The notes beneath the pieces are model-generated. The model was not told where the DNA came from and did not search any database. It saw nothing but the letters and a program-made list of their open reading frames with translations. From positions 1 to 52,071 of the forward strand of contig JACQZI010000002.1 of NCBI GenBank assembly GCA_016207825.1: a stretch of DNA of 52,071 bases, read 5' to 3'. Below, one piece after another: positions 1 to 19,976 of this stretch. Source of the stretch: Planctomycetota bacterium. GTDB lineage: Bacteria; Planctomycetota; MHYJ01; JACQXL01; JACQZI01. Made by a program: the position numbers and the translations under genes. Position 1 is the first letter of the stretch. Each line of letters opens with the position of its first letter.

Positions 1-1143
1 GTCCGCATTGACATCTCCTGCACTAAGGGACATAATATAGCCTAAACCTGTACGCGACCATTTGAAAGTCCCGTCATTATCCATAGCATAAACCTCTCCG
101 CCGATATTTCCCCCCGCAAATTCATATTCGGCATCCCCGTCCAATTGACAGGTTACCAGGTCATCAAACGAGCCGGGCGCCATTACCACCGGTGGCGGAT
201 TCGCTGTAGAATAACTTACATACCAGTCGCATAAAACCGGGGTTTTATTCGTATCTGTGGCAACAAAATTCGCCCGGAGTTTTATCTGCGGGTAGGTAGA
301 AGCATTTACCACTTTCAGGGCAAGATTATCGCCGGATGCCACTGAAGCAATAAGGTTATTAGCTCCATCCAGGACATCAAAGTTAAGGGATGTATCAACG
401 GGGGTACTATTACTCATATACCAAAAATCCATTATTACATCGCCGGCCGCGTAAAGGTCAGCCGCGTTAACCGTATTTATATCAAGCCGTAAGGCGCCCA
501 CTGAATTTAAATTAGGCGTTCCGTTGATAGCTTCGGGATTATTAGTATCAAGCGAAACGAGATTCCAACCAATTGCCAACGATGCCTTGGGTGTGCTCTT
601 ATATACATACCATGCCCAGACGGGATAGGCATTAAACAAGAAAACCTCAACACTGCTAACCTTATTTAGCGTAGTCTGGTCTTTAATATATAACCAAACC
701 CTTATGGTTTTGCCTGTCAAATTGATTGCCGTAATATTTTTATACACGGAAAAATCAGTAATACCCGCATTAGTTTTTGTTATATTTATCGCATTCACCT
801 TTTCTTTATAAGTAGTATTATTAACACTGACAATTCCCCAACCATTAACCCATCCGGCAATGGCCTCGCAGCTATCCACCGTTTCCCCATAAGTAGCAGT
901 AAAAACACCCCAGTAGGAAACACCGGCCGGAGCGATATTAGCAGAAATATAAGTCCCATTGGCGGCGTATGGTGCAACTCCATTGGAAAGTACGGCTTCG
1001 GTATTATCCGTAGTTGTTACGGTATTGGAAAAAGCTCCCGAAACAAAGGATGTCTCTGCCCATTCATCCGCTAAGATATTACTAACGACCAAACCGAACA
1101 AAACGGCAAAACCAACAACAAAAACAGCCTTTTTTATTATCAT
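1..1143 (-). CDS. Secreted beta-propeller-like protein, 3' end outside window
   Basis: An open frame of 381 codons starts at ATG 1143 behind a GGAG Shine-Dalgarno (1150-1153) and runs off the window without a stop. Residues 1-26 are a signal peptide (MIIKK, a hydrophobic core, then a cut near ILA|DEW). The body is Asn/Thr/Ser-rich and beta-like. The last 45 residues (LDGDAEYEFAGG, GEVYAMDNDGTFKW, AGDVNAD) look like FG-GAP/VCBS or PQQ-type propeller blades, so the full protein is probably an extracellular propeller. Its start lies only 17 nt after the stop of the Cys-tailed peptide gene, so the two are probably cotranscribed. The function is unknown. It could be the surface protein that carries or displays the modified peptide, but that is inference. 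Confidence 0.8.
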   Translation of the reverse strand, partial: MIIKKAVFVVGFAVLFGLVVSNILADEWAETSFVSGAFSNTVTTTDNTEAVLSNGVAPYAANGTYISANIAPAGVSYWGVFTATYGETVDSCEAIAGWVNGWGIVSVNNTTYKEKVNAINITKTNAGITDFSVYKNITAINLTGKTIRVWLYIKDQTTLNKVSSVEVFLFNAYPVWAWYVYKSTPKASLAIGWNLVSLDTNNPEAINGTPNLNSVGALRLDINTVNAADLYAAGDVIMDFWYMSNSTPVDTSLNFDVLDGANNLIASVASGDNLALKVVNASTYPQIKLRANFVATDTNKTPVLCDWYVSYSTANPPPVVMAPGSFDDLVTCQLDGDAEYEFAGGNIGGEVYAMDNDGTFKWSRTGLGYIMSLSAGDVNAD

Positions 1144-1160
1144 GTATATCTCCTAACGCA

Positions 1161-1463
1161 TTACACGCAACAACAACAGCAGCCAGCGCCACACCCATCG
1201 TCCCAGGCTGCCCAAGTATTACCCCAACTCCAGCTGACAGTATTGGTATGTGTTCCTAAGCGGCCCGGAGCAGTCGGGTCGAAAACCATATCCACAGTAT
1301 TGGTATGGCTTCTGGCAAACACATCGGCTCCCATTATTCCACCCAATAACCCAAGTGTCAAGCCACCGATTTTTATCACTTTCCCCTTGCTGATACCGCC
1401 TTTTTCACTTTTAATAAAATTAATAAGCTTCCTTTTTATCTTCCTTTTTTTAGACTCTTCCAT
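1161..1463 (-). CDS. Candidate RiPP precursor peptide, HTNTV repeats and Cys-rich tail
   Basis: This encodes a 100-residue protein with AAGGAG spaced correctly before ATG 1463. Residues 1-31 are Lys-rich (leader-like). Residues 32-50 are a Gly-rich hydrophobic stretch ending in DVFA|R, which could be a signal peptidase site; the GG at 41-42 could be a double-glycine site. HTNTV occurs twice, at 53-57 and 72-76, encoded by the same 14-bp DNA. The region 77-89 is rich in Trp and Asp (W78, W80, W84, W87), and the tail is CGAGCCCCCV (Cys 91 and 95-99). It has its own strong promoter and sits next to the rSAM genes. I recognise no named family. The His-Xaa-Asn-Thr repeats recall the HxsA substrates of His-Xaa-Ser systems, which fits the HxsB/HxsD-like genes upstream, but no HxS repeat is present. 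Confidence 0.75.
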   Translation of the reverse strand: MEESKKRKIKRKLINFIKSEKGGISKGKVIKIGGLTLGLLGGIMGADVFARSHTNTVDMVFDPTAPGRLGTHTNTVSWSWGNTWAAWDDGCGAGCCCCCV

Positions 1464-1526
1464 GTAATAATCTCCTTTTCTTACATAAAAACGCGATAGC
1501 GAAAGACCTATAATCTTTCCATTTTA

Positions 1527-1555
1527 AGTATACTTGATTACCATTCTGTTGTCAA
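1527..1555 (-). promoter_or_regulatory. Sigma70-type promoter of the peptide gene
   Basis: On the minus strand TTGACA (1550-1555) is followed by a 17-nt spacer and TATACT (1527-1532), nearly consensus. The predicted leader is about 60 nt and contains a small hairpin, GAAAGA/TCTTTC (1501-1519), upstream of the Shine-Dalgarno. The peptide gene is therefore expressed separately from the rSAM genes upstream. Confidence 0.75.
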
Positions 1556-1636
1556 CTTTTTTTATGAAAAGCGGAAAAATATTTAGCAAAGCCAATTATC
1601 AAGCGGCCACGCCGTTTAAAATCTAACGTCTAACAA

Positions 1637-2692
1637 CTATTCCACCCAACACATCCTGTTCATGGTTATATCCGGATTATGCTTTTCCCTAACAGTATTA
1701 CGGCAATATTGTTTAACCGGGCACAAGCTGCATTTTTTGAATTTATCAGCATTCTTTTTGGCTGGCTCCGTTTTTTTCCACGATTCGTAATGTTTCTGGA
1801 AGAAAAGCGGGTTTATTGTTTTTCCCTTGGTGATTTCATTAATCTTAAGAATGGGCTTTTCTACGGCAGATGAACGATAATTTTTATGGGTTATGATTTT
1901 TTTGTATTCATCCAAACGTCCCAGTTCATAATAGGCGCGGGCAAACAAATGATGGTATTCCTGAGGCGCGATAATCTCATATTTAAAATTGCAATCCCCG
2001 GGCAGTTTATCAAAGAGATTGATTAATCTGATTAAAACATCACGATACTCCAAAGGAGTAAGCATTTTTGACCTAAGTTCAGCTCCTTTTCCTCCTGGCC
2101 ATAGTAATCCAAAAGTAAAAATATTTACCTGTTTATCTACAAGCAAACTGATGCAATCTTCCAGTTCATCCGAATTAATGCGGGAGAGTGTAAAATTTAT
2201 CTTGGTTTTTATCCCGGCTTTTTTAAGATGCCTTAAAGCCAGCAAGGTTTGCCTGAAATCCCCGCGTTTTCTTATGTCATCATGGGTTTTTTCCATCCCG
2301 TCTAGGCTTAGAGAAAAGAAAGAAATATCAAATTCCTTTAATTTAACCGCAATTTTAGGGGTGATTTTCAATGGGGTACCTGCAACGCCGATTCTGTCAA
2401 TAATACCGGATTTTTTGTATTCGTAAGCCACTTCAAGAATATCGAAAAAATCTTTTCTTTGGAGAGGGTCGCCTCCGGTAAAAGTTATCTGGCCTATAAG
2501 GTTATTTTTAAGAAGGAACGTTCGGAAGCTTGCCAGTATTTCAAGGCAATAGTTGTAAGAGATATCTTTTTTAAAATACCTGCCTGCCCGGTTGCAATGC
2601 TTGCATTCACCTTCGCATTTATTAGTAATCGCCCAGCGAAATGAATATCCGGTGCGGTTTTTGCATTCTGATAATTTTAAATTTTTCATCAT
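1637..2692 (-). CDS. Radical SAM/SPASM-like enzyme, CWVE-tail family member 1
   Basis: This is a 351-residue radical SAM protein. The 4Fe-4S motif C26-x3-C30-x2-C33 is followed by a TFTGGDP motif that binds the SAM amino group. The C-terminal Cys cluster CSLCPVKQYC, ending NRMCWVE, suggests an auxiliary-cluster (SPASM/twitch-like) domain. The start at ATG 2692 overlaps the upstream stop in ATGATGA, so the two genes are translationally coupled. The frame is open further upstream, but that stretch translates the neighbour's tail out of frame. It is a paralogue of that neighbour (same ending, same TFTGGDP context) and is probably a peptide-modifying enzyme of the adjacent precursor. The substrate is not shown. 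Confidence 0.85.
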   Translation of the reverse strand: MMKNLKLSECKNRTGYSFRWAITNKCEGECKHCNRAGRYFKKDISYNYCLEILASFRTFLLKNNLIGQITFTGGDPLQRKDFFDILEVAYEYKKSGIIDRIGVAGTPLKITPKIAVKLKEFDISFFSLSLDGMEKTHDDIRKRGDFRQTLLALRHLKKAGIKTKINFTLSRINSDELEDCISLLVDKQVNIFTFGLLWPGGKGAELRSKMLTPLEYRDVLIRLINLFDKLPGDCNFKYEIIAPQEYHHLFARAYYELGRLDEYKKIITHKNYRSSAVEKPILKINEITKGKTINPLFFQKHYESWKKTEPAKKNADKFKKCSLCPVKQYCRNTVREKHNPDITMNRMCWVE

Positions 2693-3810
2693 TCCACCCA
2701 GCACATTCTGTGGGGGCCGTAAATACTTCCCGGTGTATGATGGACGCACCCGATACCCTGCCCGCAATAAACCACCGCCGGGCAGGCACGGCATTTGGCA
2801 AATTCCGCTTTTTTCTTTTCAGTGTACGGCACATCCTCAAGTGACCTCAACAAATCAGATGATTCGTAAATTTTACGGAAGGAATCCTGCGGAACGCGCC
2901 CTATTTTTATCGGGATAAGCCTTCGGAGATACACATCGCCATCCGGTAAAACCGCAAAAATAATTCCTTGCTCATTAGTTTCCGGTGCTTTGTCCGCTCC
3001 CCTAATCTTAAGATATTCATTCCACCTGCCCAGTTCATAAAAAAGCAGGGAGAATAAGTGGCCACCGGCAATTATTCCGTTCTTAAGGTTTTGGTGTTTA
3101 CCGGGAAGCGAATCAAGCAGTCCAAGTACATCAATCAAAAGTTTCCTGTATTCTGAAGGCAAAAGCAGGTCGTTTTCAAGATTACTGCCTGCCCCGACCG
3201 GCGTAATAGGGAAAAACACAAACTTCGAAATGTTTTCCGAAATAACCCTACGGATAACATCGAGTAACTCTTTGGCATTAGCGCGATAGAGGCAAAAAGC
3301 GGCATGAGCGGTGATGCCAACATCATGAAGGCATCTGAACGCGTTTATGGTTTTCTTAAAACCGCCCGGTTTACGGATAAAATCATGAGTAGTTTCAAGC
3401 CCATCAATATTTAACCGGCAAATGATATCAGGGGACAATGATTTCAAACGGCGGGCGATTTCTTCGTTTATATAGTCGGGGTTGCATAAAATCCTGATAT
3501 TCTTGATGGCGCCTGACCGTTGATATTCAGCGGCAATTTCAAGGATATCCATGAAATCTCCGCGCAAAAGCGGGTCACCGCCGGTAAAGGTCACATTGGC
3601 ATTAAGCGGATAAGCCTTGCTGAATTCGCGATAAGAGTTGAGTATTTTCAGGCAATCACCATGAGAAAGGTCTTTGTGTGATGTCCCGTCTTTTCGGAAA
3701 CAGAATTTACAGTTATTGCCGCATTCGGAAGTAATCTCCCAAAAAAGATAGCATTTTTTATTTTTTGGAATCCGCTCCGCTTGTGGAATTTTGCTGTTAA
3801 TGGGATACAT
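2689..3810 (-). CDS. Radical SAM/SPASM-like enzyme, CWVE-tail family member 2
   Basis: This 373-residue radical SAM protein has C30-x3-C34-x2-C37, then TFTGGDP, and a C-terminal Cys cluster (CRACPAVVYCGQGIGC, ending HRMCWVE) typical of auxiliary Fe-S domains. I chose ATG 3810 because a TTGACT-N17-TATGCA promoter ends 8 nt before it, giving an almost leaderless mRNA. A GTG at 3828 is the alternative. It overlaps the next rSAM gene by 4 nt. The pair looks like a tandem duplication whose enzymes have diverged, perhaps acting on different residues of one peptide. Confidence 0.85.
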   Translation of the reverse strand: MYPINSKIPQAERIPKNKKCYLFWEITSECGNNCKFCFRKDGTSHKDLSHGDCLKILNSYREFSKAYPLNANVTFTGGDPLLRGDFMDILEIAAEYQRSGAIKNIRILCNPDYINEEIARRLKSLSPDIICRLNIDGLETTHDFIRKPGGFKKTINAFRCLHDVGITAHAAFCLYRANAKELLDVIRRVISENISKFVFFPITPVGAGSNLENDLLLPSEYRKLLIDVLGLLDSLPGKHQNLKNGIIAGGHLFSLLFYELGRWNEYLKIRGADKAPETNEQGIIFAVLPDGDVYLRRLIPIKIGRVPQDSFRKIYESSDLLRSLEDVPYTEKKKAEFAKCRACPAVVYCGQGIGCVHHTPGSIYGPHRMCWVE

Positions 3811-3818
3811 AATATTTA

Positions 3819-3847
3819 TGCATAACACAATTTCACCGCACAGTCAA
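3819..3847 (-). promoter_or_regulatory. Promoter giving a near-leaderless rSAM mRNA
   Basis: TTGACT (3842-3847), a 17-nt spacer and TATGCA (3819-3824) lie on the minus strand, 8 nt before ATG 3810. Transcription would start within about two bases of the start codon. The same layout occurs before two other rSAM genes in the locus. Confidence 0.5.
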
Positions 3848-3864: not shown

Positions 3865-4061
3865 CTAAGTACAGCAAATCACAATAAGGTGTCCGAAAAG
3901 TGTCATTGCGAGGGAGTCCCGCAGGGCGGGACGACCGAAGCAATCTCATATTCTCCGCATAAAACAGAGATTGCCACGCTCCCCCGCCGAAGCGAGGTCG
4001 CTCGCAATGACGACATAGAGGAGGCTTTTTTGGACACCCATTTATGATTTACGGTACTAAG
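3865..4061. repeat. MITE-like palindromic element
   Basis: This is a 197-bp element between two rSAM genes. Its ends form an imperfect inverted repeat of about 30 bp: CTAAGTAC...GGTGTCC at 3865-3893 pairs with GGACACC...GTACTAAG at 4032-4061. Nested inside are GTCATTGCGAGGGA/CTCGCAATGAC and GAAGCAATCTC/GAGATTGCC, a REP-like arrangement common in bacterial intergenic DNA. There is no transposase, so it would be non-autonomous. The inner open frame (3903-4094) is a by-product of the palindrome. Confidence 0.7.
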
Positions 4062-4175: not shown

Positions 4176-5057
4176 TTACAAAGGCTTTAATTCTTCAACC
4201 CCATTAAATTCTATATAATTAATATCCAGCCCCGAACATTTTTTTATCAGCCGGCAGCCATAGCATTTATCCGGGTGGTTTTTTCTCATATCGATGACGG
4301 GTTCAACAAGATACCTCCCTCTTTTTATATACCCCAAATAATTATTAGGATACCTGCGGGCGGTTATCGATTCCGGTGCGATGCATAACGGAAAATCACG
4401 CAGCACGATATTCAGCTTTTTCTTGCGGCTTATTTCACCCGTTTTTTTAAGATAAAGCGCGGCATCGCTGTGCTTCACCAAAATACCTTTATTCTCCAGC
4501 GCGCGACCCTGGTATTTTGCGGAAAATATTTGCAAGCCGAGCAGGCTGTCGCCAAACCCGGCAAATATATATTCGGCAAATTCCGGCAATTCTTTGTAAT
4601 TATGGGCGTTGCAAACGCAGTTAACATAAAATCCCCTACGCCTTTCTTTTAAAAATGAAACCGTCTTAAGAATATCCTGGTACGAACTCTTGCTTTGCGT
4701 GAGTGTGTTGTGAATCTCCGGCTTATGGGAATGCAAGGATATTACGAGAACATCGATTAAATTCACGAGCTTTTGCAAATTATTTAATACCGTGCCGTTG
4801 GTGGTCACCAATATCTTCAGGCGCTTTTTACGGCATAATTTCATAACATCTTCCAAATGACCGTATAAAAAAGGTTCTCCGCCGCCAAACCAGATGCCTT
4901 TGATGTGTTTTTCGGCTATACCCATGTGAATCAGCGACTTAATATCATATAATGAGTAGAATGATTTAAATGGTTTTAAACAGAAAAGGCATTTTTGGTT
5001 GCATTCATCTGAAATCCCGAGATTCAGTATCGCATATCTGTCAAAAGGAAAACTCAT
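4176..5057 (-). CDS. Radical SAM enzyme, ELKPL-tail family
   Basis: This 293-residue radical SAM protein has C19-x3-C23-x2-C26, a WFGGGEP motif near residue 58, and a C-terminal cluster CYGCRLIKKCSGL ending GVEELKPL. The same tail pattern (CxxCx5CxG...Y...G..ELKP) closes the rSAM enzymes at 10779 and 11756 and the remnant at 9184, so these form one family. A TTGACT-N17-TAAATT promoter places the transcript start on the A of ATG 5057, and no Shine-Dalgarno is visible. It is an isolated single-gene unit now, separated from its relatives by the inserted 5-9 kb segment. It is probably a peptide or protein modifying enzyme; the substrate is unknown. Confidence 0.85.
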   Translation of the reverse strand: MSFPFDRYAILNLGISDECNQKCLFCLKPFKSFYSLYDIKSLIHMGIAEKHIKGIWFGGGEPFLYGHLEDVMKLCRKKRLKILVTTNGTVLNNLQKLVNLIDVLVISLHSHKPEIHNTLTQSKSSYQDILKTVSFLKERRRGFYVNCVCNAHNYKELPEFAEYIFAGFGDSLLGLQIFSAKYQGRALENKGILVKHSDAALYLKKTGEISRKKKLNIVLRDFPLCIAPESITARRYPNNYLGYIKRGRYLVEPVIDMRKNHPDKCYGCRLIKKCSGLDINYIEFNGVEELKPL

Positions 5058-6035: not shown

Positions 6036-6060
6036 TTTTCTCACCCCCTTTCCCGTAGGT

Positions 6061-6664: not shown

Positions 6665-6701
6665 AACTCTCACCTCCTTCACGAAAGTTCGCTCCGCGTG
6701 T

Positions 6702-7559
6702 TTAATCATTCAATGGTTCAATAGTTCTCTTTTGAACATTTGAACCTTTAAACCCTGGAACTCCATCAAGAAATCTATAGATTTCGCCGATGGGAACCAC
6801 TCCGGCCATTGTTGTTACTAATTGGTCTTGGTATAACCTGACCCAAACCGCAATACCGATTAGCTCATAAGTTGAACGGTTCCCGTCTTGTGACGGGACG
6901 TCGGTTCGCTTTGCGAACACTCCGCCGCCGGAATTTCCCGGCAATATAGGTGCGGAAACTTCCCATGAATCGACCGCAAAGGCGCAAAGGTGACCGAAAG
7001 ATGGGCGAGGGGGTAAACCAAGAGAGCAACCCACCGCCCAAACCGGGGCAAATAAATATGGTGTATAATCTTTAGGAGCAAGCTTCGCTGAATAAATATC
7101 TTTAACACGAATGTCACCAATATTACGAATCACACGAATAAGAGCTAAATCCTTTCCAGTATCAGTTAAAACAATAGAAGCCCTTAGTGTTTCCGTATCT
7201 TGATGGCTATAATCATAAAATGTAACGTCCACGCTTGAATACTTCCCTACAACATGCGCGGCAGTAAGTATGTATGTTCCTGTTGAACTAATGGACTGAT
7301 GAACCAATGAACCTGGAATGATTACACCCGTTCCTCTGCCTGTTATTGTCGTAATCATTACAGCAGGTTTGAGCATTTCATCATACTCGCGCTGGTAAGG
7401 ATTTTTGCCTTCGGGCAAAGGCCGAATGATGATAACATCAGACGGCAACTCCGGAGGTTTAGTTACCCAGGCCGTAAACAAAATGCCCCATATCCCCAAA
7501 ACCAATATGATTATTAGCCTTCTAAATCCGGTTAATCCGTTAAATCCGCGGTTCCTCAT
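6702..7559 (-). CDS. Membrane-anchored trypsin-like serine protease
   Basis: This 285-residue protein starts at ATG 7559, behind AGGAGGGTGA. Residues about 14-31 are one membrane segment (LIIILVLGIWGILFTAWV), placing the protease outside the membrane. The chymotrypsin-fold triad is visible: His in LTAAHVV, Asp in KDLALI and Ser in GNSGGGV, as in S1/S1C peptidases. No PDZ domain follows, so it is shorter than DegP/HtrA. The first residues (RNRGFNGLTGFR) translate an interspersed DNA repeat also found at 36447-36473. It could mature a peptide from the neighbouring rSAM locus, but the surrounding cassette looks inserted, so that link is weak. Confidence 0.8.
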   Translation of the reverse strand: MRNRGFNGLTGFRRLIIILVLGIWGILFTAWVTKPPELPSDVIIIRPLPEGKNPYQREYDEMLKPAVMITTITGRGTGVIIPGSLVHQSISSTGTYILTAAHVVGKYSSVDVTFYDYSHQDTETLRASIVLTDTGKDLALIRVIRNIGDIRVKDIYSAKLAPKDYTPYLFAPVWAVGCSLGLPPRPSFGHLCAFAVDSWEVSAPILPGNSGGGVFAKRTDVPSQDGNRSTYELIGIAVWVRLYQDQLVTTMAGVVPIGEIYRFLDGVPGFKGSNVQKRTIEPLND

Positions 7560-7777
7560 ATCTTCACCCTCCTTGAAAGGACATTCGCAATTCTGAATTC
7601 GCCATTCGCGATTCTCCATTAGTTTTGCCTCTCAATATCAAGGTGATTATTACGCGGTTTGTAACTTTTGGGAATGCGGTTTTTAGTCCTAACTCCAGGC
7701 ATGGCAAGGTGATAAAAAATTTTTGCAATTCCGGCTGTAGTGTTTTTTTGTAAATTTTAGGTGGGAAAAGGAATACC

Positions 7778-9183: not shown

Positions 9184-9306
9184 TCATTTAATTTTAACTT
9201 TATGGCTTAACCAGGCAGGTATTTTGATGTTTTTGATAGGATTAAATTCATTGAAATCGATTGTTTTACTGTAAGAATGCCACCTAATTCCGCGAATTCC
9301 GAGGGA
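9184..9306 (-). pseudogene. Remnant of an ELKPI-tail radical SAM gene
   Basis: A 41-codon open stretch ends at TGA 9184-9186 and reads ...GIRWHSYSKTIDF, then NEFNPIKNIKIPAWLSHK. It aligns with the tail GVWRSY...GLDELKPIKYRKLPSWL of the rSAM enzyme at 10779 (shared W-SY, E, PIK, K, P, WL). An in-frame TAG (9307-9309) precedes it and no upstream rSAM core is found. It lies just downstream of the B12-type rSAM gene in the same direction, so it is probably the last gene of the operon, deleted by the rearrangement that brought in the 5-9 kb segment. Confidence 0.6.
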
Positions 9307-9430
9307 CTATAGCCCATTTTCATTTACAAAGGTCTTTATTTAAGCGAAAATTAATATATGAGCGCTAACAGCCCAACTTTTTGGATTAATCCGCGGATTT
9401 GTGCAATTGATTAAGCCGTGATGAAAAACA

Positions 9431-10777
9431 TCAAAACTCTATTTCCGCCTTTCGGCGAAAGGCAAACTTCCTTATTTTTTCGTGATAATCCAAAATAGTT
9501 TTTTTGTCCGTTCGGCAGAATAAAGCCGCCCAATCTGAAAAGAGTTTTTCTTGGTCGAAAATATATTGCCCCTGATATTTCCGTTTGATTTCGGGATGCG
9601 CCATCAATTTCTCAAAGCAACCAGAGCCCGGGTCTATTTCCAGTAGTTTTACGTAAAACTTTGATTTGGGATATTCGGAAATTTTACTGGCGAAATCGTA
9701 GTTTTTCTGAAGGCTTTCTTCGGTTTCCCCTTCTAACCCCAGAATTAAATAACTATTGCTATAGAGCCCTGATTCATTCAGCAGCCGTGTCGCTTTTTTG
9801 TTGTCCTCAGGGGTCGATTTTTTATTGGCAAGCTTTAGGACTTCCGCGTCATTGCTGGTAAAACCTACATAGGCAACGGCTGTTCCGATGTCTTTAAGCA
9901 AGGAGATGTTTTTTTTGTTAATCATTTCAGCCTCGCATGAAACGACATATTTAACATAATTGGTTTCGCCTTCTAATATTTTTTTGCGGTATTTTTCCAG
10001 CCATGACGGAGAAGAAAATATATTTCCGGAAACGTCCCGGATAAGATTAACGCCCCATTTTTTAGAAAGTAATTTCCGTTCTTCAACCGCAATTTCCGGT
10101 TTTCTTAACCTTAATCCTTTGTCTTTGACACAGCAAAAACTGCACTTTTTGTTCATTCCGATTTGGTTGATGCAACCTCGCATGGAAAAAGTAGCCAGCA
10201 TCCGTATGCGGCGCGACTCCAAGCTTTGGATTTTAAAATAATCTTCCGGATTGACGAAAGAATAGTCAAGCGGGGGAAAATTTCTGATATCGACCTGTTT
10301 TAATTCGTTTGTGTGGATTTCACCTGTTTTATACCTATATGCGATATTGGGAATATCGGGAAAAGCTGTTCCTTTTACGATTTCCACTATTGCTTCTTCA
10401 CCATCGGAACGCACGATTATATCCGCTTCCAAGCCGCCAGAAAGGATTTCCCTGTATAAATGGGTAGCGTGTATTCCTCCTAAAATAACGGTTCCTTTGG
10501 GATTTGCTTTTTTTGCTTTTGACACCAGTTTCAAGGTGTTTTGTGCATTATACCCACGCATATTGAATCCATAAAAAGACGCTTCTGGGTCGATTTTGCC
10601 GACCATAGTAGGATAATCTATGATTGCGCCATCCGTAATTTCTATTTTGACGCTTTTTCGAAATGCCGACTTTAAACAATTGGCCAGTATCAATAATCCT
10701 AAATTGGGAAGGGCATTGGTTGGATTAAGATCTTCCTTATCATGGGGTGCGAAAAACAGCTGTATCTTTTTCATCAT
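9431..10777 (-). CDS. B12-binding-type radical SAM enzyme
   Basis: This 448-residue protein begins at ATG 10777, one base after the upstream stop. Residues 1-165 resemble the cobalamin-binding domain of COG1032 enzymes (PNLGLLILANCL, VILGGIHATH, ADIIVRSDGEEAIVEIV), although the classical DxHxxG is not obvious. The radical SAM core follows with an unusual C202-x9-C212-x2-C215 in place of Cx3Cx2C, inside MRGCINQIGMNKKCSFCC. Later segments (VVSCEAEMI, AYVGFTSNDAEVLKLANK) match the family. Such enzymes often methylate unactivated carbon. Here the substrate would plausibly be the pathway peptide or a sugar. It is the last intact gene of the long operon. Confidence 0.85.
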   Translation of the reverse strand: MMKKIQLFFAPHDKEDLNPTNALPNLGLLILANCLKSAFRKSVKIEITDGAIIDYPTMVGKIDPEASFYGFNMRGYNAQNTLKLVSKAKKANPKGTVILGGIHATHLYREILSGGLEADIIVRSDGEEAIVEIVKGTAFPDIPNIAYRYKTGEIHTNELKQVDIRNFPPLDYSFVNPEDYFKIQSLESRRIRMLATFSMRGCINQIGMNKKCSFCCVKDKGLRLRKPEIAVEERKLLSKKWGVNLIRDVSGNIFSSPSWLEKYRKKILEGETNYVKYVVSCEAEMINKKNISLLKDIGTAVAYVGFTSNDAEVLKLANKKSTPEDNKKATRLLNESGLYSNSYLILGLEGETEESLQKNYDFASKISEYPKSKFYVKLLEIDPGSGCFEKLMAHPEIKRKYQGQYIFDQEKLFSDWAALFCRTDKKTILDYHEKIRKFAFRRKAEIEF

Positions 10778-10778: not shown

Positions 10779-11741
10779 TCAGGAACGCCTCAGCCACGAA
10801 GGCAATTTACGGTATTTTATTGGTTTAAGTTCATCCAAACCAAAAAACCTTTCATAAGAGCGCCACACTCCCCGGCAGAGATTGTCCGCTTCACATTCCT
10901 TGCAGGATTCCGGTTTTACACACGGAGAACGGGTTTCTTCAGGTATTGCGCAGATGTCAATTTCGGTTCTGGGCGGACCGACCATTTCGCCTATTTTAGG
11001 CTCCCTGTAAACAAAAGGTAAATAAAATCCCGGGTTAGGGAAAATACAGGGGGGGATGCGGTATAACTTTATATTTTGATTATAGGAAGAGCCGATATCA
11101 AGCGCTTTCATAATATACGGCTTGGCGTCGGTGAGCCTGATAAAGGTTTTTTTACGGTTTGACAGCGCGCCGGAAACCATATCCAGCGATTCCATCAGGA
11201 GCATATTAGGGCGCGGTAATTCTTCGGAAATAAACCTTACTGTTTCAGAAAGCGATTTTATGGTGCTTTTACATGCCAATATTTTTACGTTGATGAGCAA
11301 TTTATTCCCTTTTCCCCTTAATTCCATCAGGTTTTTTATGCCGGCTAAGGTTTCATCGAAACTGCCTTTAACGCCGGTAAAAGCGTCAAAGAGTTTTCTG
11401 TCTGAAGAATGGAACACGATAAAAGGCTCGCGCAAACCGGATTTAATCGCTTCTTTAGCGAACTTTTTATCGGCAAATTTACGGCCATTGGTTAAAATAC
11501 CCAGCCAGGTGCCTGTTTTTGCCGCGTATCGGGTAATTTCAAGAAAATCCGGATGTATAGTCGGCTCTCCTCCGCTTAAGGTAAGTGTATTTTCCCGGTA
11601 TTTATCAATATAGCTTTTTACTTCGTTAAAGGGTAATATCCCGTGTTTTTTCCAGGCAGGTGGTGACGGGCAGGAAATGCATTTATTGTTGCAGTTATAA
11701 CATATTTCCAGGTTAACGAAACGGGAAGAGCATTTAGGCAT
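10779..11741 (-). CDS. Radical SAM/SPASM enzyme, ELKPI-tail paralogue A
   Basis: This 320-residue protein has C17-x3-C21-x2-C24 in CYNCNNKCISC (with an extra Cys at 14), LSGGEPTIHPDF, and a C-terminal cluster CKECEADNLCRGVWRSY...ELKPI that should hold an auxiliary Fe-S cluster. A Shine-Dalgarno AAGGAG precedes ATG 11741. It is closely related to the next gene upstream over its whole length (KGSF, NLCxL/NLMEL, IPPCIFPNP), a clear tandem duplication. It is probably a peptide-modifying enzyme of the locus. Confidence 0.85.
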   Translation of the reverse strand: MPKCSSRFVNLEICYNCNNKCISCPSPPAWKKHGILPFNEVKSYIDKYRENTLTLSGGEPTIHPDFLEITRYAAKTGTWLGILTNGRKFADKKFAKEAIKSGLREPFIVFHSSDRKLFDAFTGVKGSFDETLAGIKNLMELRGKGNKLLINVKILACKSTIKSLSETVRFISEELPRPNMLLMESLDMVSGALSNRKKTFIRLTDAKPYIMKALDIGSSYNQNIKLYRIPPCIFPNPGFYLPFVYREPKIGEMVGPPRTEIDICAIPEETRSPCVKPESCKECEADNLCRGVWRSYERFFGLDELKPIKYRKLPSWLRRS

Positions 11742-12706: not shown

Positions 12707-12712
12707 ATTATT

Positions 12713-12741
12713 TTTATACAATAAATTAACGAAAAAGTCAA
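12713..12741 (-). promoter_or_regulatory. Internal promoter giving a leaderless rSAM mRNA
   Basis: TTGACT (12736-12741), a 17-nt spacer and TATAAA (12713-12718) are followed by 6 nt and ATG 12706. Its distances are identical to those of the promoter at 5064-5092. Confidence 0.6.
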
Positions 12742-14012
12742 TAATGGTTTTTAAAGCCGTTGGGAAGCAATGAGTGATTCAGCGGATTAACGGTCACACC
12801 AGATAAAACAGCGTCATATGCCTTAAAACGTCCGTTAATGTATTCCTCGAAATGAGTCACTTTTTCTCTCAATGTTTTATAGGCGTTTTTACCTACACTA
12901 ATGCGCTTGGCTTTATTTTTAATAATACGGGAGAGTTTCGTGCTTAGCTCAGACATTTTGAGGGGATTGACAATGAAGGTATTGTAACCGTCCTTTAATG
13001 AGTTCTTAAAGGGGAATTTACCCGCGATTTCCTCGCTCAGAAGCGTACAAGCTCCCGTGGCAAAGGATTCCCTGTATAATACCGGCTGGTGTTCTTTTAC
13101 CGGAAACTGGTTTTCCAGATGAATCACGCAGGAAGCGCGTTTTATCAAACCGGGCATTTTCCACGGAGGCAGGAAAGGAATTATTTTTGATTGCCTCAGG
13201 ACATTGGGGTATTTACCAAGGTGTTCACGGAATTCGCCTATTAATTTACCGTTGGTAACGAATAGGATAAAAAATATTTCTTTTATCTTTTCCAGCGCCG
13301 TTACAAGTTCAAAAACACCTTTATTCCTGCTTGTCTTGCAGGCAACCAGTAAAAGAGGGATATTTTTGTCTAATTTGCCTATGCCCAGTTCACCCAGGTT
13401 AATGGGCTTTGCATCGGAGTTAAAACAGTTCGGATTTACCTGGTAAAAAGGCGCGGCGTAAAACTTGCCCGGAGCAATACCCAAATTTATCAGTTCGCGA
13501 TGTAAATTTCCTAATGTTATAACTCCATCAACATTCTTGAAAAGATGTATAAAGGCGGTCCGGAAAGAAGGGCGGCTGAAAATCTTTCTGGCATCGCTTC
13601 CGGCGGTTTGCAAAAGCTGCCGGCGACCGGTAAACATTTTTGACAGGTAACCGGCAAATCCGTAAGGTAACGTATAAATAGAATGTATTATTTCACAATC
13701 ATATTTTTTAACAACTTCCACGGCTAAATTAGCCAAACGCACAACCATGGCATCTGTATGAGGAATAGGGACTACAGAAAGAATATCTTCTTCCGGCAGG
13801 TTATGAACAAAAACATTTTTAGGCTGGTAAAAAGCTTGTTCCGCCTGCTTATCCAAATTCAACTGTTCGCGGTACATCTCCTCTACAAGAAAAGCGTTGG
13901 TTACAATATGGACTTGGTGCCCCTGCTGTCCCAAAGCGCGCGCAAACCAGTAGGTATGCGCCGAAACACCACCGGCAATAGGCGGGTATTTACCGATAAT
14001 ACATATTTTCAT
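12738..14012 (-). CDS. Glycosyltransferase, GT4-like
   Basis: This 424-residue cytosolic protein has two Rossmann-like halves. The N-terminus MKICIIGKYPPIAGGVSAHT and ARALGQQGHQVHIVT is the usual GT-B acceptor domain. In the C-terminal half, IPFLPPWKMPGLIKRASCVIHLE and ESFATGACTLLSEEIAG are the family's nucleotide-sugar region. It overlaps the upstream peptidase gene by 4 nt (ATGA), so they are translationally coupled. Its place between processing genes and rSAM genes suggests it glycosylates the pathway product or its carrier. Polysaccharide synthesis is the alternative, but no other sugar genes are nearby. Confidence 0.85.
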   Translation of the reverse strand: MKICIIGKYPPIAGGVSAHTYWFARALGQQGHQVHIVTNAFLVEEMYREQLNLDKQAEQAFYQPKNVFVHNLPEEDILSVVPIPHTDAMVVRLANLAVEVVKKYDCEIIHSIYTLPYGFAGYLSKMFTGRRQLLQTAGSDARKIFSRPSFRTAFIHLFKNVDGVITLGNLHRELINLGIAPGKFYAAPFYQVNPNCFNSDAKPINLGELGIGKLDKNIPLLLVACKTSRNKGVFELVTALEKIKEIFFILFVTNGKLIGEFREHLGKYPNVLRQSKIIPFLPPWKMPGLIKRASCVIHLENQFPVKEHQPVLYRESFATGACTLLSEEIAGKFPFKNSLKDGYNTFIVNPLKMSELSTKLSRIIKNKAKRISVGKNAYKTLREKVTHFEEYINGRFKAYDAVLSGVTVNPLNHSLLPNGFKNHY

Positions 14013-15100: not shown

Positions 15101-16690
15101 TTATTTACTTTCAACCGGATAGATATTATATTTTTTCAGGGTCAATTCATTATCAAATGTTTTCTTAAATGCATCCAGGAACTTCTTTATTTTTTTGTCT
15201 GATTCTATCGCATTGTCCCATACTATATAACAAGGACTGACGTAAGGGTATTTGCCGGATTTAATCGCCTCTTCATCCAAAGGTGAGATTCCGTCAATCT
15301 TTAATGTTTTCACCTTGCTAGTGTTCAGCTGGGTTTGGTCCGTTATGATAACAATCCCAAGGCTGTTTTTATCTTGAGAGGCTAAATCAATGATTTGGCC
15401 GGTAGAACACTTCATCGTTATCGCCAGGGGAGGGGGAATTTTCAAATAAGAATCAAAAAACCTTTTGCGTAGAGAATAAACAGTGATTTTCCCTTTCAGG
15501 TCAGTAGAGATTTCAGACCAGTCGGTTATTTTACCGGAAAGTATTCCTTTTAATTTTTCGGAACTCATGTTTTCCATATCAGCAAGTTTGTCAGAGACGA
15601 TCAATCTGTTCGGGATTATACCGATAGGATAGTAGTGAAAGTTTCTTTTCCCCAGATAGGCTTTCAGGTATTTGCTGTTCGAATAAAAAAGAGTAATATC
15701 TGCCTGGAGCACTGAAGACGCGCTATCATCCGGTTTAATCATGGCTTTGAAATCAGGAAGCCCGGCATCTTTACTGATTTTCGGGATAAGCCCGCTCACA
15801 GCTTTTGCCATGTCCGGCAGAACAGCTAAAATTATATCTGCCTGATAAATCTGTTGTTTTTCCAGGATATCTTTTTTAGCCAGATAAGCGGAAAGTTCCT
15901 GAAAAAAAACGTGTTCGGCGATTTCCGGTTTCCAGACAAGGTAGCATGCGATACTGTAAGGATATAGCCCGTTTATCAGTGTTTCGCGGGTAGGCAATAT
16001 TCCGTCTATGCTCAAGATGGTCAGATTTTTCAGGTCGGATTCAGCTAGCTCCACCATCGGAATAATTGCCAGACTGTTTTTATCCTCGCTTAGATGCTCT
16101 ATTATCTGCGAAACCGGTTTTTGGCTTACTTGGGGCTGTTCAGAAAAATTTAGCCATGCGGACACATTATGCCTGAAAGTTGCGTATACGGTTATTTTTC
16201 CGCTTGCTTTCGGGTTTATTTTTGACCAGTCATCCGTTTTACCTGAAAGAATATCCATTAATGAAGTCAAGCTTAAATCTGTAATGTTTTCCTGTGCTGG
16301 TTTTGCGGTTATCACCGCGATAGGGGTTAGACCGAGTTTCTTATATGGGTAAGTTTTTTCGGGTAATGCATCCTGTTTGGTATTGCCGACCATAAGAGAA
16401 CTTATGAATATATCGTATTTTTTTGGGGGTATTGTTTCTAAGGTGTCCATGATATTCTCTTTAGGCTCTATCCGGACGGCAAATTTACCCTGCTTAGCGG
16501 AATCTTTTTCCGCCAATATCTTGAAAATATCCGAAGTGATTTCTTCAAAGTTTTTTTTCAACCCCGAAGGAGCGGATATTCTGATTAAAGGCATCTGCTC
16601 TTCCGATGAGTCCTTATCATCCGCATGAGTAAAAACCATGGCAATCACCAAGAGCATCAATACGATGAGTGAAGCCGCATGTTTCTTCAT
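15101..16690 (-). CDS. Exported PstS-like protein with internal duplication
   Basis: This 529-residue protein has a signal peptide at residues 1-23 (MKKHAASLIVL... ending THA|DD). It contains two consecutive phosphate-binding-protein-like modules (about 35-300 and 300-525). The parallel motifs are LMDILSGKTDDWSKI / LKGILSGKITDWSEI, EDKNSLAI / QDKNSLGI, and SIDGILPTRETLINGLYPY / KIDGISPLDEEAIKSGKYPY. ILSGK..DWS is the PBP-like domain signature of PstS proteins. There is no ABC permease or ATPase nearby, so uptake of phosphate is doubtful. It might bind the mature product or serve as a periplasmic or surface scaffold. Confidence 0.8.
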   Translation of the reverse strand: MKKHAASLIVLMLLVIAMVFTHADDKDSSEEQMPLIRISAPSGLKKNFEEITSDIFKILAEKDSAKQGKFAVRIEPKENIMDTLETIPPKKYDIFISSLMVGNTKQDALPEKTYPYKKLGLTPIAVITAKPAQENITDLSLTSLMDILSGKTDDWSKINPKASGKITVYATFRHNVSAWLNFSEQPQVSQKPVSQIIEHLSEDKNSLAIIPMVELAESDLKNLTILSIDGILPTRETLINGLYPYSIACYLVWKPEIAEHVFFQELSAYLAKKDILEKQQIYQADIILAVLPDMAKAVSGLIPKISKDAGLPDFKAMIKPDDSASSVLQADITLFYSNSKYLKAYLGKRNFHYYPIGIIPNRLIVSDKLADMENMSSEKLKGILSGKITDWSEISTDLKGKITVYSLRKRFFDSYLKIPPPLAITMKCSTGQIIDLASQDKNSLGIVIITDQTQLNTSKVKTLKIDGISPLDEEAIKSGKYPYVSPCYIVWDNAIESDKKIKKFLDAFKKTFDNELTLKKYNIYPVESK

Positions 16691-16704: not shown

Positions 16705-17904
16705 TTAATTGTAATTATTTACTGATAAAGGCAATAATCCGTTTTTTCTTTGTTCGGCAAAATCGTTTTTCATGTATTTTCCGCATCGCCCGTAGAATAC
16801 AAACGGCCCTTGCTGGCCAGTACGCCAGAGTTTTCCGTCATCTAAGGGAATCTTATCAATATGCCCCACTATTTGCGGATCGCGCGGGCAGCCGATGATA
16901 TAGCCTTCAGAATCAACGGATATGCCGTTCCATCCGATGGCGCAACCTCTTTCAAAACCGCAAACTCCGCGATATTCTTTTTTTAGCATCCCGATTACGG
17001 CCAACTTAAAAGTTTCCCATTCTGCGCGTGATAGAACTTCTAAATCAGGATTGAACGGTGCGTATGGGGTAATATGAGGGGTTGCATTATATTTTTCGCA
17101 TAATTCCAGGATATATTCTATGTTAAATCTATTTTGCTTTGATACGGTAAATGATATTTGTCTGATAATATTGTTTTTGGCCAGGATATCCAAAGCTTTT
17201 AATGCGATATCAATTTTACGCCCGCGTATTTTAGGATATGTTTTTTTATCACCGTCGATGCTTATCTGGACAGGGAATATTTCAAACAAGTCGCGGCCGC
17301 GCTTTAAGAGATCTATATTTTTAGGGACAAGCAATCCGTTGCTGCTTAAGGCAACATAGTTAAAATACAATCCGCTTACTTTTATTTTGCTGATCATGGT
17401 TATTATTTCCGGTAACTGTGGGTGGAGAAACGGCTCGCCTCCCAAAAGATAAATAGCCCTGTGCTTGAAATCAGCGGCACGCCGGACAGACAAAAACTGC
17501 CGGCACATTTTTTCGATGACCTCAAGCGTCAGATAAGAGGATTTTACGTGTTTGCTTTTATTTTGGTTATAGCAGTGTTTGCAGGCGAAATTGCATTTTC
17601 CGGTAATCTGAAGGTTAAGCAAAAAACGCGGTTTAAAAGAAGAAGGTGCGGTCTGAAAAGATTCCATCTGATAACATTTACTCTGTTTTTTGATATTGAT
17701 CTTTCTTTGCGGGTAACATCTTTGGTAGCCGGATAAAGCAAACAGAACAAAACGCTCCGCTCTTCCGGATAAACCTTTCAACCTGATATGAATATCCGTA
17801 TCCGGTTGCAGTTTTTTTACGAAGTCGGCGAAATTCTTTCCGGAAAGAGTTAATTTCTGATGAAAAGAAGCGGTTGGATATAATTTATATTGAGGAGTAA
17901 TCAT
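16705..17904 (-). CDS. Radical SAM/SPASM enzyme with extra N-terminal domain
   Basis: This 399-residue protein has a roughly 90-residue N-terminal domain of unknown type before the core. The Fe-S motif is C104-x3-C108-x2-C111 (GKCNFACKHCYNQN), followed by YLLGGEPFLHPQL. The C-terminal part has CGFERGCAIGW...DSEGYIIGCPRDP, a partial SPASM pattern. It starts 8 nt after the HxsB-like gene, strongly suggesting the two enzymes act together, as HxsB and HxsC do. I do not see the HxsC signature, so I leave it unnamed. Confidence 0.85.
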   Translation of the reverse strand: MITPQYKLYPTASFHQKLTLSGKNFADFVKKLQPDTDIHIRLKGLSGRAERFVLFALSGYQRCYPQRKINIKKQSKCYQMESFQTAPSSFKPRFLLNLQITGKCNFACKHCYNQNKSKHVKSSYLTLEVIEKMCRQFLSVRRAADFKHRAIYLLGGEPFLHPQLPEIITMISKIKVSGLYFNYVALSSNGLLVPKNIDLLKRGRDLFEIFPVQISIDGDKKTYPKIRGRKIDIALKALDILAKNNIIRQISFTVSKQNRFNIEYILELCEKYNATPHITPYAPFNPDLEVLSRAEWETFKLAVIGMLKKEYRGVCGFERGCAIGWNGISVDSEGYIIGCPRDPQIVGHIDKIPLDDGKLWRTGQQGPFVFYGRCGKYMKNDFAEQRKNGLLPLSVNNYN

Positions 17905-17912: not shown

Positions 17913-19328
17913 TTATTGCCGCTGTTCCGATGATTCTCTTTTTGTGATATTAGTAGCGGCGGTCCACCATTCCAGTAAAGTATCTTTATGCTCGCCCATT
18001 AACAGATTCATGACGTATTGCAATTGCAGCTGCCGCAATTTACAGTGAAAATCACGCTGTTTAATTGGGATAAACCCTTCTTTGCTTCCCGAAGAGCGTA
18101 GAAGGCACGTTCCGCAATAAGGAGCCCAGATGCATTGGCGGCAGGAATTAACCAGATTGCTTAACCCGCGCAGGCCCTTGGTTTTTTCAACTAAATTATC
18201 ATAAGTCATGTTATATACGTCTCCGATTATGAAATCTTCCCCATAACCGCGCGAAGCGTCGCAGAAATATATATTTCCTGATGAATCATAAGATATTTGG
18301 TTAATACCGGCTCCACAGGGACTCCTAAAGCACATATAATCACCTCCGGTAGGGCTAAGCAATCTTTCCAAAATAGTTGTAATTGAGCCTTCTTTCATGG
18401 GGATTCCCTGTTTTTCATAAAGATTGATGCAATAGTCAACGCCTTGTTTCCAGAATTTATAAAACTCCTCGGGTGAATAACCTATTTGCTTCCAGTTAGA
18501 AATAGCCACGCCGCAGAGATTTAGCTCCCTAAGCCTAATTGTATAAATTTTTTGCTTCAGGTATTCGTCAATAATAGCTTTTGCTCCGTATTCCAGTGAA
18601 TATCGAGTAATGGTGGTTAGAGCATGTATTCTCTCATTGAATCTTTCCCTGGCATATTTTATCCACTTAACGACATTATCATAACTGCTTTTATTGCCGA
18701 GCACACGCTGTTTATCATGCAGAGATTTTGGCCCGTCCAGAGACGTGAACGGTTTTATGCCTGATTTTATGAGTTCATCAAAGATTTTTACGGTCATATT
18801 GGATAAATTCGTTGCCATGCGACAGAGTATTTTTTTATTGCCTTTATTTTTCCCCAATTTTCTGACTATATATATGACTGTCTTAAGATTCAAGAGAGAT
18901 TCGCCTCCTTGAAACTCTAAGGCAAGATTCCTGGATGGGACAGAAAGAATAAAATCAGTTATTTTATCGGCGGTTTTTTTCGACATGTTTGACGAACTGC
19001 TTTTTTCTTCTTTTGGCGAGGCGGAGTGGCAATAAATACATTGGTGAGTGCAACGGTTTGTAACAACTACAATATGAAGCGTAACAGGTTCGCAAAGAAA
19101 TGAATATCTCTGGCGCACCCCTGCTTTTATAAGGTCAAGATTATTTTTAGTGATAATAATGCCTTCTTCATCAAGCCTTTTATATAACTCCGAATTTTGT
19201 TCGGCGCGGCCGGTCATCATAAGGTTATATTCCTCCGGCGTCAATATATCCCAGGCGCCCGAGATAGTGCTGACCATGTATTTGCCGTCTATTTTCTTCG
19301 CCATCACGTCTGCTATGTAGTTTGCCAT
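17913..19328 (-). CDS. HxsB-like radical SAM/SPASM maturase
   Basis: This is a 471-residue protein. After an N-terminal region of about 80 residues (SGAWDILTPEEYNLMM) comes LHIVVVTNRCTHQCIYC with C93, C97 and C100, then LALEFQGGESLLN. This arrangement (LHI.VVT..C.H.C.YC and .EFQGGE.LLN) is characteristic of HxsB of the His-Xaa-Ser systems. A full SPASM domain follows (GDVYNMTYDNL, CRQCIWAPYCGTC, later Cys). HxsB enzymes work with HxsC, the small protein HxsD and an HxsA substrate with HxS repeats. Here two HxsD-like proteins precede it, but no HxsA is seen. I am confident of the family resemblance; the substrate is inferred to be the HTNTV peptide. Confidence 0.85.
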   Translation of the reverse strand: MANYIADVMAKKIDGKYMVSTISGAWDILTPEEYNLMMTGRAEQNSELYKRLDEEGIIITKNNLDLIKAGVRQRYSFLCEPVTLHIVVVTNRCTHQCIYCHSASPKEEKSSSSNMSKKTADKITDFILSVPSRNLALEFQGGESLLNLKTVIYIVRKLGKNKGNKKILCRMATNLSNMTVKIFDELIKSGIKPFTSLDGPKSLHDKQRVLGNKSSYDNVVKWIKYARERFNERIHALTTITRYSLEYGAKAIIDEYLKQKIYTIRLRELNLCGVAISNWKQIGYSPEEFYKFWKQGVDYCINLYEKQGIPMKEGSITTILERLLSPTGGDYMCFRSPCGAGINQISYDSSGNIYFCDASRGYGEDFIIGDVYNMTYDNLVEKTKGLRGLSNLVNSCRQCIWAPYCGTCLLRSSGSKEGFIPIKQRDFHCKLRQLQLQYVMNLLMGEHKDTLLEWWTAATNITKRESSEQRQ

Positions 19329-19345
19329 ATTTTTTTTCTTATTAA

Positions 19346-19603
19346 TTAAGAAACCGGGAATAGGGTAAAATTGCTGATAAGGGCATCATTAAATAACACG
19401 GCCATTTCCTCGAGGTCGGCCTTCTTTGATTTAGGCGTCAGGGTTATTTCATAGGCATCCTTGCAATTTTTAATTCCAGCCTTGCACTCACCGCTTAGCG
19501 CCTCTTTCGCGCCTTCAATCATGCCTTTGGTATAAATAGCCTTCTCCAGAGAGATGATAACTTTCCCTTTCCCTATGACGTAGTTTTTAAAATCACTTGC
19601 CAC
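19346..19603 (-). CDS. Short HxsD-like protein (second copy)
   Basis: GTG 19603 is preferred. It has GGAG 8-10 nt upstream and gives MASDFKNYVIGKGKVIISL, which aligns with MGNYTLGKQSVIINV of the upstream copy. An ATG at 19618 and a longer frame from 19633 are alternatives. The 85-residue protein keeps the N-terminal strand, the helix (AIYTKGMIEGAKEAL) and LFNDALISN, but it ends before the LRK..I..AL helix of the first copy. It overlaps that copy by 11 nt. It is probably a truncated duplicate that may pair with it as a heterodimer. Confidence 0.7.
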   Translation of the reverse strand: MASDFKNYVIGKGKVIISLEKAIYTKGMIEGAKEALSGECKAGIKNCKDAYEITLTPKSKKADLEEMAVLFNDALISNFTLFPVS

Positions 19604-19925
19604 TTTTTTGCACTCCATATAAAGCTGTCGCAATCAGCACTTTCCTCAATTCATCATTCTTGGCCGATTCCTGGTAAAACATCGCGTAATTCACCAGCTG
19701 GTCGTTATATTCCTTGGCCAGCTCTTCCAGGTTTTTAGGAGTGGGTTTCCCTTCCAGAGGGGTTAATTTAATCACATATCTGCCGTTTTCCCCTTCGGCT
19801 TTCCCGACAATGATGTGCGCCTTCCCCAACATGGCGTATGCCGCAGCCAACGTTGTTTCTTTGCTGTAAAGGGATGCATCAACATTTATGATTACCGATT
19901 GTTTACCTAATGTATAATTTCCCAT
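19593..19925 (-). CDS. HxsD-like small accessory protein
   Basis: This 110-residue protein has AGGAGG before ATG 19925. The features VIINVDASLYSKETTLAAAYAM, RYVIKLTPLEGK and EYNDQLVNYAMFYQ...LRKVLIATAL match the layout of HxsD (TIGR03976-type, named for LLNDYxLRE): a beta strand, a helix, then a helix carrying N..L..Y. HxsD proteins accompany HxsB/HxsC rSAM enzymes and may present the substrate. It is the first gene of the long operon, just behind the strong promoter. Confidence 0.75.
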   Translation of the reverse strand: MGNYTLGKQSVIINVDASLYSKETTLAAAYAMLGKAHIIVGKAEGENGRYVIKLTPLEGKPTPKNLEELAKEYNDQLVNYAMFYQESAKNDELRKVLIATALYGVQKSGK

Positions 19926-19948
19926 CTTCTTCCTCCTTTTATATTATC

Positions 19949-19976
19949 ATTATAATAAAAGATTATATTTTGTCAA
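19949..19976 (-). promoter_or_regulatory. Strong sigma70-type promoter of the rSAM operon
   Basis: A perfect TTGACA (19971-19976), a 16-nt spacer and a perfect TATAAT (19949-19954) lie on the minus strand. The leader is only about 17 nt and contains the Shine-Dalgarno AGGAGG. It would drive genes from 19925 down to about 9184. Confidence 0.8.

Follow-up and report, generated by a model that had tools for sequence, protein, structure and literature searches.

A multi-enzyme radical SAM locus of a Planctomycetota bacterium as a diverged relative of the His-Xaa-Ser system

A stretch of 52,071 nucleotides from a Planctomycetota bacterium (bases 1-52071 of contig C2 of the source genome, G000; hereafter the window) carries, from 19925 down to 1 and on the minus strand throughout, a dense set of radical S-adenosylmethionine (rSAM) genes together with the gene of a small peptide. 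Judged from its sequence, this locus is a strongly diverged and enlarged variant of the His-Xaa-Ser (Hxs) system and not a member of it, because none of its Hxs proteins reaches the curated cut-off and its precursor is devoid of HxS repeats. We consider it likely that the locus encodes one pathway for a ribosomally synthesized and post-translationally modified peptide (RiPP), which would act on a single HxsA3-like precursor and would have an envelope role involving a PstS-like and an FG-GAP protein. The original prediction, which knew of no described RiPP system with this set, is not supported as it stood, since the locus is related to a described one. Gene identities were obtained from profile hidden Markov model searches (Pfam, TIGR and NF models) compared with curated cut-offs.

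The source genome (2.89 Mb, 97.6% complete, 42 contigs) has 38 rSAM hits in total, and eight of these genes fall within 20 kb, where 0.21 would be expected from the other 30. All the parts that had been named beforehand, i.e., an HxsB-like maturase, two HxsD-like proteins, a GT4 glycosyltransferase, an A24 peptidase, a duplicated PstS-like protein, a small peptide and a secreted protein, are present on one strand between 1 and 19925. The eight rSAM genes announced with them were also recovered; there are two remnants and not one, and the word intact is generous for the B12-type enzyme and for the gene starting at 1637.

The Hxs-related core and its precursor peptide

The genes that relate the locus to the Hxs system are the following.

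19593..19925, minus strand: HxsD-like protein 1 (110 residues), first gene of the operon; TIGR03976, E 2.5e-8
19346..19633, minus strand: HxsD-like protein 2; NF038315 (HxsD_rel), E 4.4e-6
17913..19328, minus strand: HxsB-like SPASM rSAM maturase with a predicted N-terminal domain resembling a RiPP recognition element (RRE); TIGR03978, E 5e-99; SPASM cysteines and CxxxCxxC
16705..17904, minus strand: rSAM4, adjoining HxsB at the usual HxsC position; cluster motif CNFACKHC
1161..1463, minus strand: precursor peptide (100 residues); NF038309 (HxsA3), E 4e-8 over residues 8-54 only; own sigma-70-like promoter

HxsB reaches 332 bits against a TIGR03978 cut-off of 370 and is 67% identical to its copy in a second genome, G003. 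The AlphaFold model of HxsB (mean pLDDT, the predicted local distance difference test, 72) places an RRE-like beta3-alpha3 domain at residues 8-75 ahead of the rSAM/SPASM body, with a confidence of about 70-90 across this domain and blocks over residues 11-60 at 81-90. The best solved matches retrieved with Foldseek are CteB, TigE, ChlB (with leader), the anaerobic sulfatase maturase and SuiB; for CteB, TigE, ChlB and SuiB, E ranges from 2.5e-15 to 1e-10. By its predicted fold, HxsB falls among the leader-binding SPASM RiPP maturases, and the modelled N-terminal beta3-alpha3 domain together with the SPASM cysteines is what is expected of an RRE-containing member of that group. Given the predicted RRE-like domain and a fold of the CteB/TigE/ChlB/SuiB type, the natural reading would be that HxsB binds the leader.

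The first HxsD-like protein scores 34 bits against the TIGR03976 cut-off of 50 and is 65-66% identical to the G003 copy. Its model (pLDDT 84) has the order beta-alpha-beta-beta-alpha and gave no match in the PDB at E <= 1e-3. This predicted fold is not the winged-helix, PqqD-like one, which rules out HxsD as the RRE, and since the model is without a close solved relative we treat HxsD1 as a partner of unassigned role. The second HxsD-like protein reaches 27 bits against the NF038315 cut-off of 41 and is 48% identical to its G003 copy; its conserved start is probably the internal ATG at 19618. rSAM4, 61% identical to the G003 copy, was tried as the HxsC of the system and rejected, as the HxsC profile gives no match, and no close family was found among the models.

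The precursor has its own promoter in the window (TTGACA-17-TATACT) and is built of a conserved leader (NFIKSExGGIS..KVIKIGG), a Sec-like hydrophobic segment, and a core with two H-x-[ND]-T-V motifs, a Trp-rich SWSWG stretch and six Cys. On the strength of its basic n-region, hydrophobic stretch and V-F-A, we read the leader as a Sec-type signal extended at the N-terminus by a further conserved segment. A single homologue, 62% identical, is encoded in G003 on contig C37. Kept in both precursors are NFIKSExGGIS, KVIKIGGLTLGLL, R-[ST]-H-[TA]-[ND]-TVD, VF, AP, GTH-[TA]-NTVSWSWG, two Trp and two Cys, the latter being all the Cys present in G003. His-Xaa-Ser was absent from both precursors when the window and G003 sequences were inspected. 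The differences between the two genomes at the three codon positions (0.33/0.19/0.58) indicate a constrained coding gene, and the other conserved genes behave alike. In both genomes the FG-GAP secreted protein is the next gene downstream of the precursor, and no second precursor-like small open reading frame (ORF) was found in the gaps of either cluster. The G003 precursor is preceded by a near-perfect sigma-54 promoter (TGGCACGGTATTTGCT) and has a sigma-54 activator gene upstream (L039, 6759-8951 and 9540-9869), while the promoter of the window copy is of the sigma-70 type.

Gene order, neighbours and a second cluster

The ten leading genes (19925-9431: HxsD1, HxsD2, HxsB, rSAM4, PstS-like, A24, GT4, two HxsC-related rSAMs and a B12-type rSAM) follow one another at distances of -41 to +18 bp behind a TTGACA/TATAAT promoter read from the sequence, and for these reasons we take them as one operon. 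The operon is followed by 4 kb that hold a trypsin-like gene and unrelated ORFs, and then by rSAM5, two ACGX-type rSAMs, the precursor and the FG-GAP protein. The remaining features are, in operon order:

15101..16690, minus strand: secreted tandem PstS-like (PBP_like_2) protein; PF12849 and TIGR02136 in two stretches; N-terminal hydrophobic segment
14009..15082, minus strand: membrane A24 (prepilin-type) peptidase; PF01478; conserved YTD and GDGKL
12738..14012, minus strand: GT4 glycosyltransferase; PF13439/PF00534
11756..12721, minus strand: HxsC-related rSAM; TIGR03977, E 3e-32, 111 bits; 53% identical to a G003 copy
10779..11741, minus strand: paralogous HxsC-related rSAM; TIGR03977, E 4e-33, 115 bits; 44% identical to a G003 copy
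9431..10777, minus strand: rSAM with B12-binding domain (BchE/HpnJ-like, from profile matches); C-x9-C-x2-C, without the DxHxxG cobalamin motif
about 9199..9297, minus strand: remnant of an HxsC-type rSAM C-terminus; tblastn E 3e-4
6702..7619, minus strand: Trypsin_2 serine peptidase; PF13365, E 1e-13; triad motifs TAAH/DLA/GNSGG intact
4176..5057, minus strand: rSAM5, HxsC-related; TIGR03977, 83 bits; 48% identical to the G003 orthologue
about 3968..4048, minus strand: second remnant of an HxsC-type rSAM C-terminus; tblastn E 5e-4
2689..3828, minus strand: ACGX-type SPASM rSAM; TIGR04340, E 4e-39, 135 bits; five homologues (42-46%) in the G003 cluster
1637..2794, minus strand: second ACGX-type rSAM, C-terminal domain shortened (alignment); TIGR04340, E 5e-38, 131 bits; true start probably near 2692
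1..1143, minus strand: secreted FG-GAP-type protein, cut off at the contig end; 17 bp downstream of the precursor

Within the phylum, G003, a genome of the same order and another family, has the HxsB closest to that of the window. Contig C29 of this genome carries HxsD1, HxsD2, HxsB, rSAM4, an asparagine-synthase-like (AsnB-like) gene, rSAM5, PstS-like, A24, three HxsC-related and five ACGX-type rSAMs, so that two blocks are in common order, HxsD1-HxsD2-HxsB-rSAM4 and PstS-like-A24-HxsC-like array-ACGX-like array. The tandem PstS-like protein is 35% and the A24 peptidase 39% identical between the genomes. The two clusters occupy different sites, as the upstream neighbour in G003 is an aspartokinase and not rsmI. 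Eleven rSAM-family genes were counted in the G003 cluster, ten of them with an intact cluster motif; the ACGX-type copy at L031, 1772-2905, has lost the first cluster Cys and is a candidate pseudo-rSAM partner. The B12-type rSAM has no G003 counterpart, and none was found for GT4 in the fetched G003 stretches of C29 and C37. We take these two genes, like the AsnB-like gene of G003, as accessory, lineage-specific tailoring genes.

A count of co-occurrence, proposed as a check together with the original prediction, places the main parts in the same two genomes. Strong matches to this type of HxsB (reported E of 0) occur in G000 and G003 only, i.e., in 2 of 392 genomes of the phylum, and a third genome has an ordinary Hxs-type HxsB. 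The precursor is found in the same 2 of 392, other listed matches being at chance level, as is the tandem PstS-like protein; the A24 type of the locus is restricted to them among 207 genomes, and rSAM4 among the nine genomes of the order. A small precursor confined to genomes with its putative modifying enzymes, as would be expected of a RiPP, is thus seen in two genomes, and the association of HxsB with the precursor has a Fisher p of 1.3e-5 (0.03 within the order), resting on these two genomes. Such a test can also give a negative answer, because the family of the control gene at 5256-6044 is multicopy and present in genomes without the locus.

That control gene (5256-6044, minus strand) encodes a 262-residue protein. 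Five genomes have six or more copies of its family each and a sixth has two (6 of the 9 genomes of the order); no other of the 392 genomes searched has any. Homologues of this protein and of its 157-residue partner (ORF 6236-6709, minus strand) are also paired in G003, upstream of the precursor, and the pair has no Pfam or PHROG match. Both were rejected as parts of the system, given the copy number and wider distribution of the 5256-6044 family. The Trypsin_2 peptidase of the same 4-kb stretch is without counterpart in the G003 cluster, and whether it belongs to the pathway is uncertain.

Among the rSAM enzymes, the CxxxCxxC and GGE/GGD motifs are present in seven of eight, the exception being the B12-type enzyme with its C-x9-C-x2-C. 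The best of the three HxsC-related enzymes reaches 115 bits against a TIGR03977 cut-off of 268. In the tree, the HxsC-like array and the rSAM5 pair split from canonical HxsC with good support (bootstrap of 100% for the rSAM5 pair); within each paralogue array the trees are poorly resolved and leave undecided the order of duplications and lineage split. The rSAM5 orthologue of G003 adjoins the PstS-like gene.

The PstS-like protein is probably secreted, as suggested by its N-terminal hydrophobic segment, and because no obvious phosphate-type SGT motif follows its GKITVY segments its ligand may be the peptide or something else. Both catalytic Asp are present in the A24 peptidase (YTD, GDxKL). 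G000 and G003 have exactly two A24 genes each, one ordinary and one in the locus, and the latter is a dedicated peptidase.

Upstream of 19925 lie housekeeping genes that we take to be rsmI, rpsT and priA. Base 1 of the window is the contig end and truncates the FG-GAP protein; homology to the G003 counterpart picks up about 135 residues further, at the extreme end of contig C10, where the open frame stops 1.08 kb later and NfeD/flotillin-like genes come next. The protein very probably continues there, a junction inferred from this homology, and, should it hold, rsmI and the NfeD/flotillin-like genes would mark the two borders of the locus. Besides, a 7641-residue open frame of the source genome (G000:C37:25883-31831) has repeat domains in common with the G003 FG-GAP protein.

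Relation to described peptide-modification systems

The locus shares with the Hxs system the HxsD-HxsB adjacency (hxsD lies directly upstream of hxsB in both genomes, as in annotated Hxs cassettes), the HxsB and HxsC homology and a small precursor with an HxsA3-like leader. It differs in that the gene after HxsB is not HxsC, with three HxsC-related enzymes placed elsewhere, and in having seven rSAMs besides HxsB, as well as the A24 peptidase, the periplasmic binding protein (PBP) of PstS type and a second HxsD, whereas the canonical cassettes inspected have one HxsB and one HxsC. Annotated cassettes were found on plasmids of Nostoc, Leptospira, Hymenobacter, Aeromonas, Methylobacter and Mesorhizobium, with six more on viral contigs; in these, hxsC follows hxsB, and mostly hxsD is directly upstream and an HxS-repeat peptide is nearby. 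The window HxsB is 26-31% identical to plasmid HxsB, and the plasmid collection gave no match to the precursor, rSAM4 or the PBP. By tblastn, 383 plasmid records match the window HxsB, 315 of them Klebsiella and 308 predicted to be conjugative, and in 45 matches the coverage of the query is 80% or more. The HxsB proteins of six plasmid cassettes are without some SPASM Cys that are kept in the window, G003 and G262 forms (alignment; L048, 627-2429), so two forms of HxsB seem to exist, one with full SPASM and one reduced. In G009, a genome of the same class, an HSH-repeat peptide, an HxsD-like ORF and HxsB (L033, 1-2063) stand beside a recombinase and a primase-like gene, and this proximity suggests an Hxs set on a mobile element.

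Other systems share single traits with the locus. SPASM rSAMs nearest to TIGR04340, two to five per cluster, and a Cys-containing precursor tail recall the ACGX system, but the enzymes score 135 bits at best against a cut-off of 400 and the precursor has no ACGX repeats. HxsB resembles CteB, TigE, ChlB and SuiB in its predicted fold, with the RRE-like N-terminus and SPASM Cys, and is only 13-19% identical to them over the aligned fold. In proteusins such as polytheonamide, several rSAM enzymes act on one precursor, but precursor, leader and enzymes are others, and proteusins use fewer rSAMs than are found here. Mycofactocin clusters likewise combine a small peptide, an rSAM/SPASM enzyme and a glycosyltransferase; however, no mycofactocin family matched over its cut-off, and GT4 is absent from the second cluster.

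A search for further contigs with rSAM4 returned distant matches only, including some in a GoM-Arc1 archaeon whose rSAM4-like and HxsC-like genes are clustered. This archaeal cluster (L041, 9172-14154) has a 144-residue ORF containing Cys and Trp (10804-11238) and no HxsB among the ORFs near the rSAM4-like and HxsC-like genes; it is perhaps a related archaeal system. Another multi-rSAM cluster was observed on an IMG/VR contig (L071, 1808-10888), in which a small ORF (9199-9432) ending in WAHAGWINHGSGGDSW has several rSAM-like genes on its sides.

Proposed pathway and alternative explanations

SPASM and related enzymes form C-S and C-C links or remodel side chains, as established for CteB and SuiB; TvgB is a further example of such chemistry (PMC9062424). 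We propose that the HxsA3-like precursor is expressed from its own promoter and that HxsB, through its RRE-like N-terminal domain, probably binds the conserved leader, the two HxsD-like proteins serving as accessory subunits. Modification of the core would take place in the cytosol through HxsB, rSAM4 and the HxsC-related and ACGX-type enzymes; its likeliest targets are the H-x-N-T-V motifs, the Cys tail and the Trp-rich stretch. The peptide would then exit through its Sec-like segment, the leader being removed by the dedicated A24 peptidase and/or signal peptidase, after which it may act in the envelope together with the tandem PstS-like protein and the secreted FG-GAP protein. We infer these roles of the A24 and PstS-like proteins, and that the peptide may be heavily modified and exported is suggested by the number of enzymes and the signal-like leader. 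Of the original proposal of one pathway for an exported, heavily modified and perhaps glycosylated peptide, the single pathway is sustained by the joint restriction of HxsB, PstS-like protein, precursor and A24 peptidase to two genomes and by the syntenic copy; glycosylation is a weak suggestion, because GT4 is missing from the second cluster and thus occurs in one genome only.

Several observations weigh against one pathway on one peptide. Eight to ten rSAMs are many for a core of about 50 residues, and some may have other substrates. Some of these enzymes have decayed, as seen in the two remnants, the lost first Cys of one G003 copy and the shortened 1637 gene. The co-occurrence amounts to two cases, and physical linkage of precursor and enzymes is seen once, the G003 precursor being on contig C37 and the enzymes on C29. 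A dedicated exporter was not found. Pilins carry Glu at +5 of the A24 site, and the precursor leaders (KSEKGGISKGK / KSEAGGISQDK) do not, so a cut by the A24 peptidase after KSExGG stays a proposal only.

The number of enzymes could instead reflect more than one pathway, with an Hxs-like core neighbouring unrelated rSAM arrays that work on other substrates, for instance a cofactor, a lipid or the FG-GAP protein. The ACGX-type, B12-type and rSAM4 enzymes indeed stem from different families, and the 4-kb stretch with its unrelated multicopy gene parts the operon from the last three rSAMs; but the same mixture and order recur in G003, the arrays there directly adjoining the core, and we regard this explanation as unlikely. 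Decay of an ancestral pathway, now partly broken in the source genome, would account for the two remnants, the shortened 1637 gene and the inserted unrelated genes. It is very unlikely, however, in view of the intact operon core and precursor, the good promoters and the strong constraint at codon positions 1 and 2.

Other alternatives concern the function of the product. Methanobactin is recaptured by its periplasmic binding protein, and in the same style a secreted His/Cys/Trp peptide could carry a metal or small ligand and be taken up again by the PstS-like protein. The Cys tail and His motifs of the precursor agree with this, as does a tandem PBP strictly linked to the system and without the SGT-type phosphate signature after GKITVY, whereas neither cluster has an ABC permease, ATPase or TonB receptor, and the Cys of the precursor drop from six to two in G003; a ligand carrier is in our view quite unlikely. 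An anti-phage locus of viperin or other type has next to no likelihood and was rejected: pVip models do score 71 bits with rSAM5 and 55 bits with rSAM4, but the viperin cut-off of 180 (NF038283) is missed by far (61 and 54 bits), the HxsC model outscores the viperin-type one for rSAM5, no nucleotide kinase is present and the linkage to the peptide is strict.

We therefore retain a single Hxs-related RiPP pathway as the probable reading. That it should constitute a new RiPP class, with one H-x-N-T-V precursor, eight to ten rSAMs of four or five families, a leader cut by a dedicated A24 peptidase and a peptide held by a PstS-like envelope protein, is conceivable but doubtful. A literature search returned nothing on Hxs experiments, on rSAM RiPPs that involve a prepilin peptidase, or on single RiPP clusters with seven, eight or ten rSAMs, and a review of RiPP leader proteases has no mention of an A24 peptidase in a peptide-modification pathway (PMC10885120). 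The locus ties such a peptidase to a pathway of this kind.

Hxs cassettes are common on plasmids and occur also on viral contigs, yet their chemistry and function are mysterious. The locus described here offers an independent version in two genomes, with other precursor motifs, in which HxsD, HxsB and the leader are the constant parts and other parts vary. Overall, many uncharacterised rSAM peptide enzymes are gathered here in little space, next to one evident candidate for their substrate.

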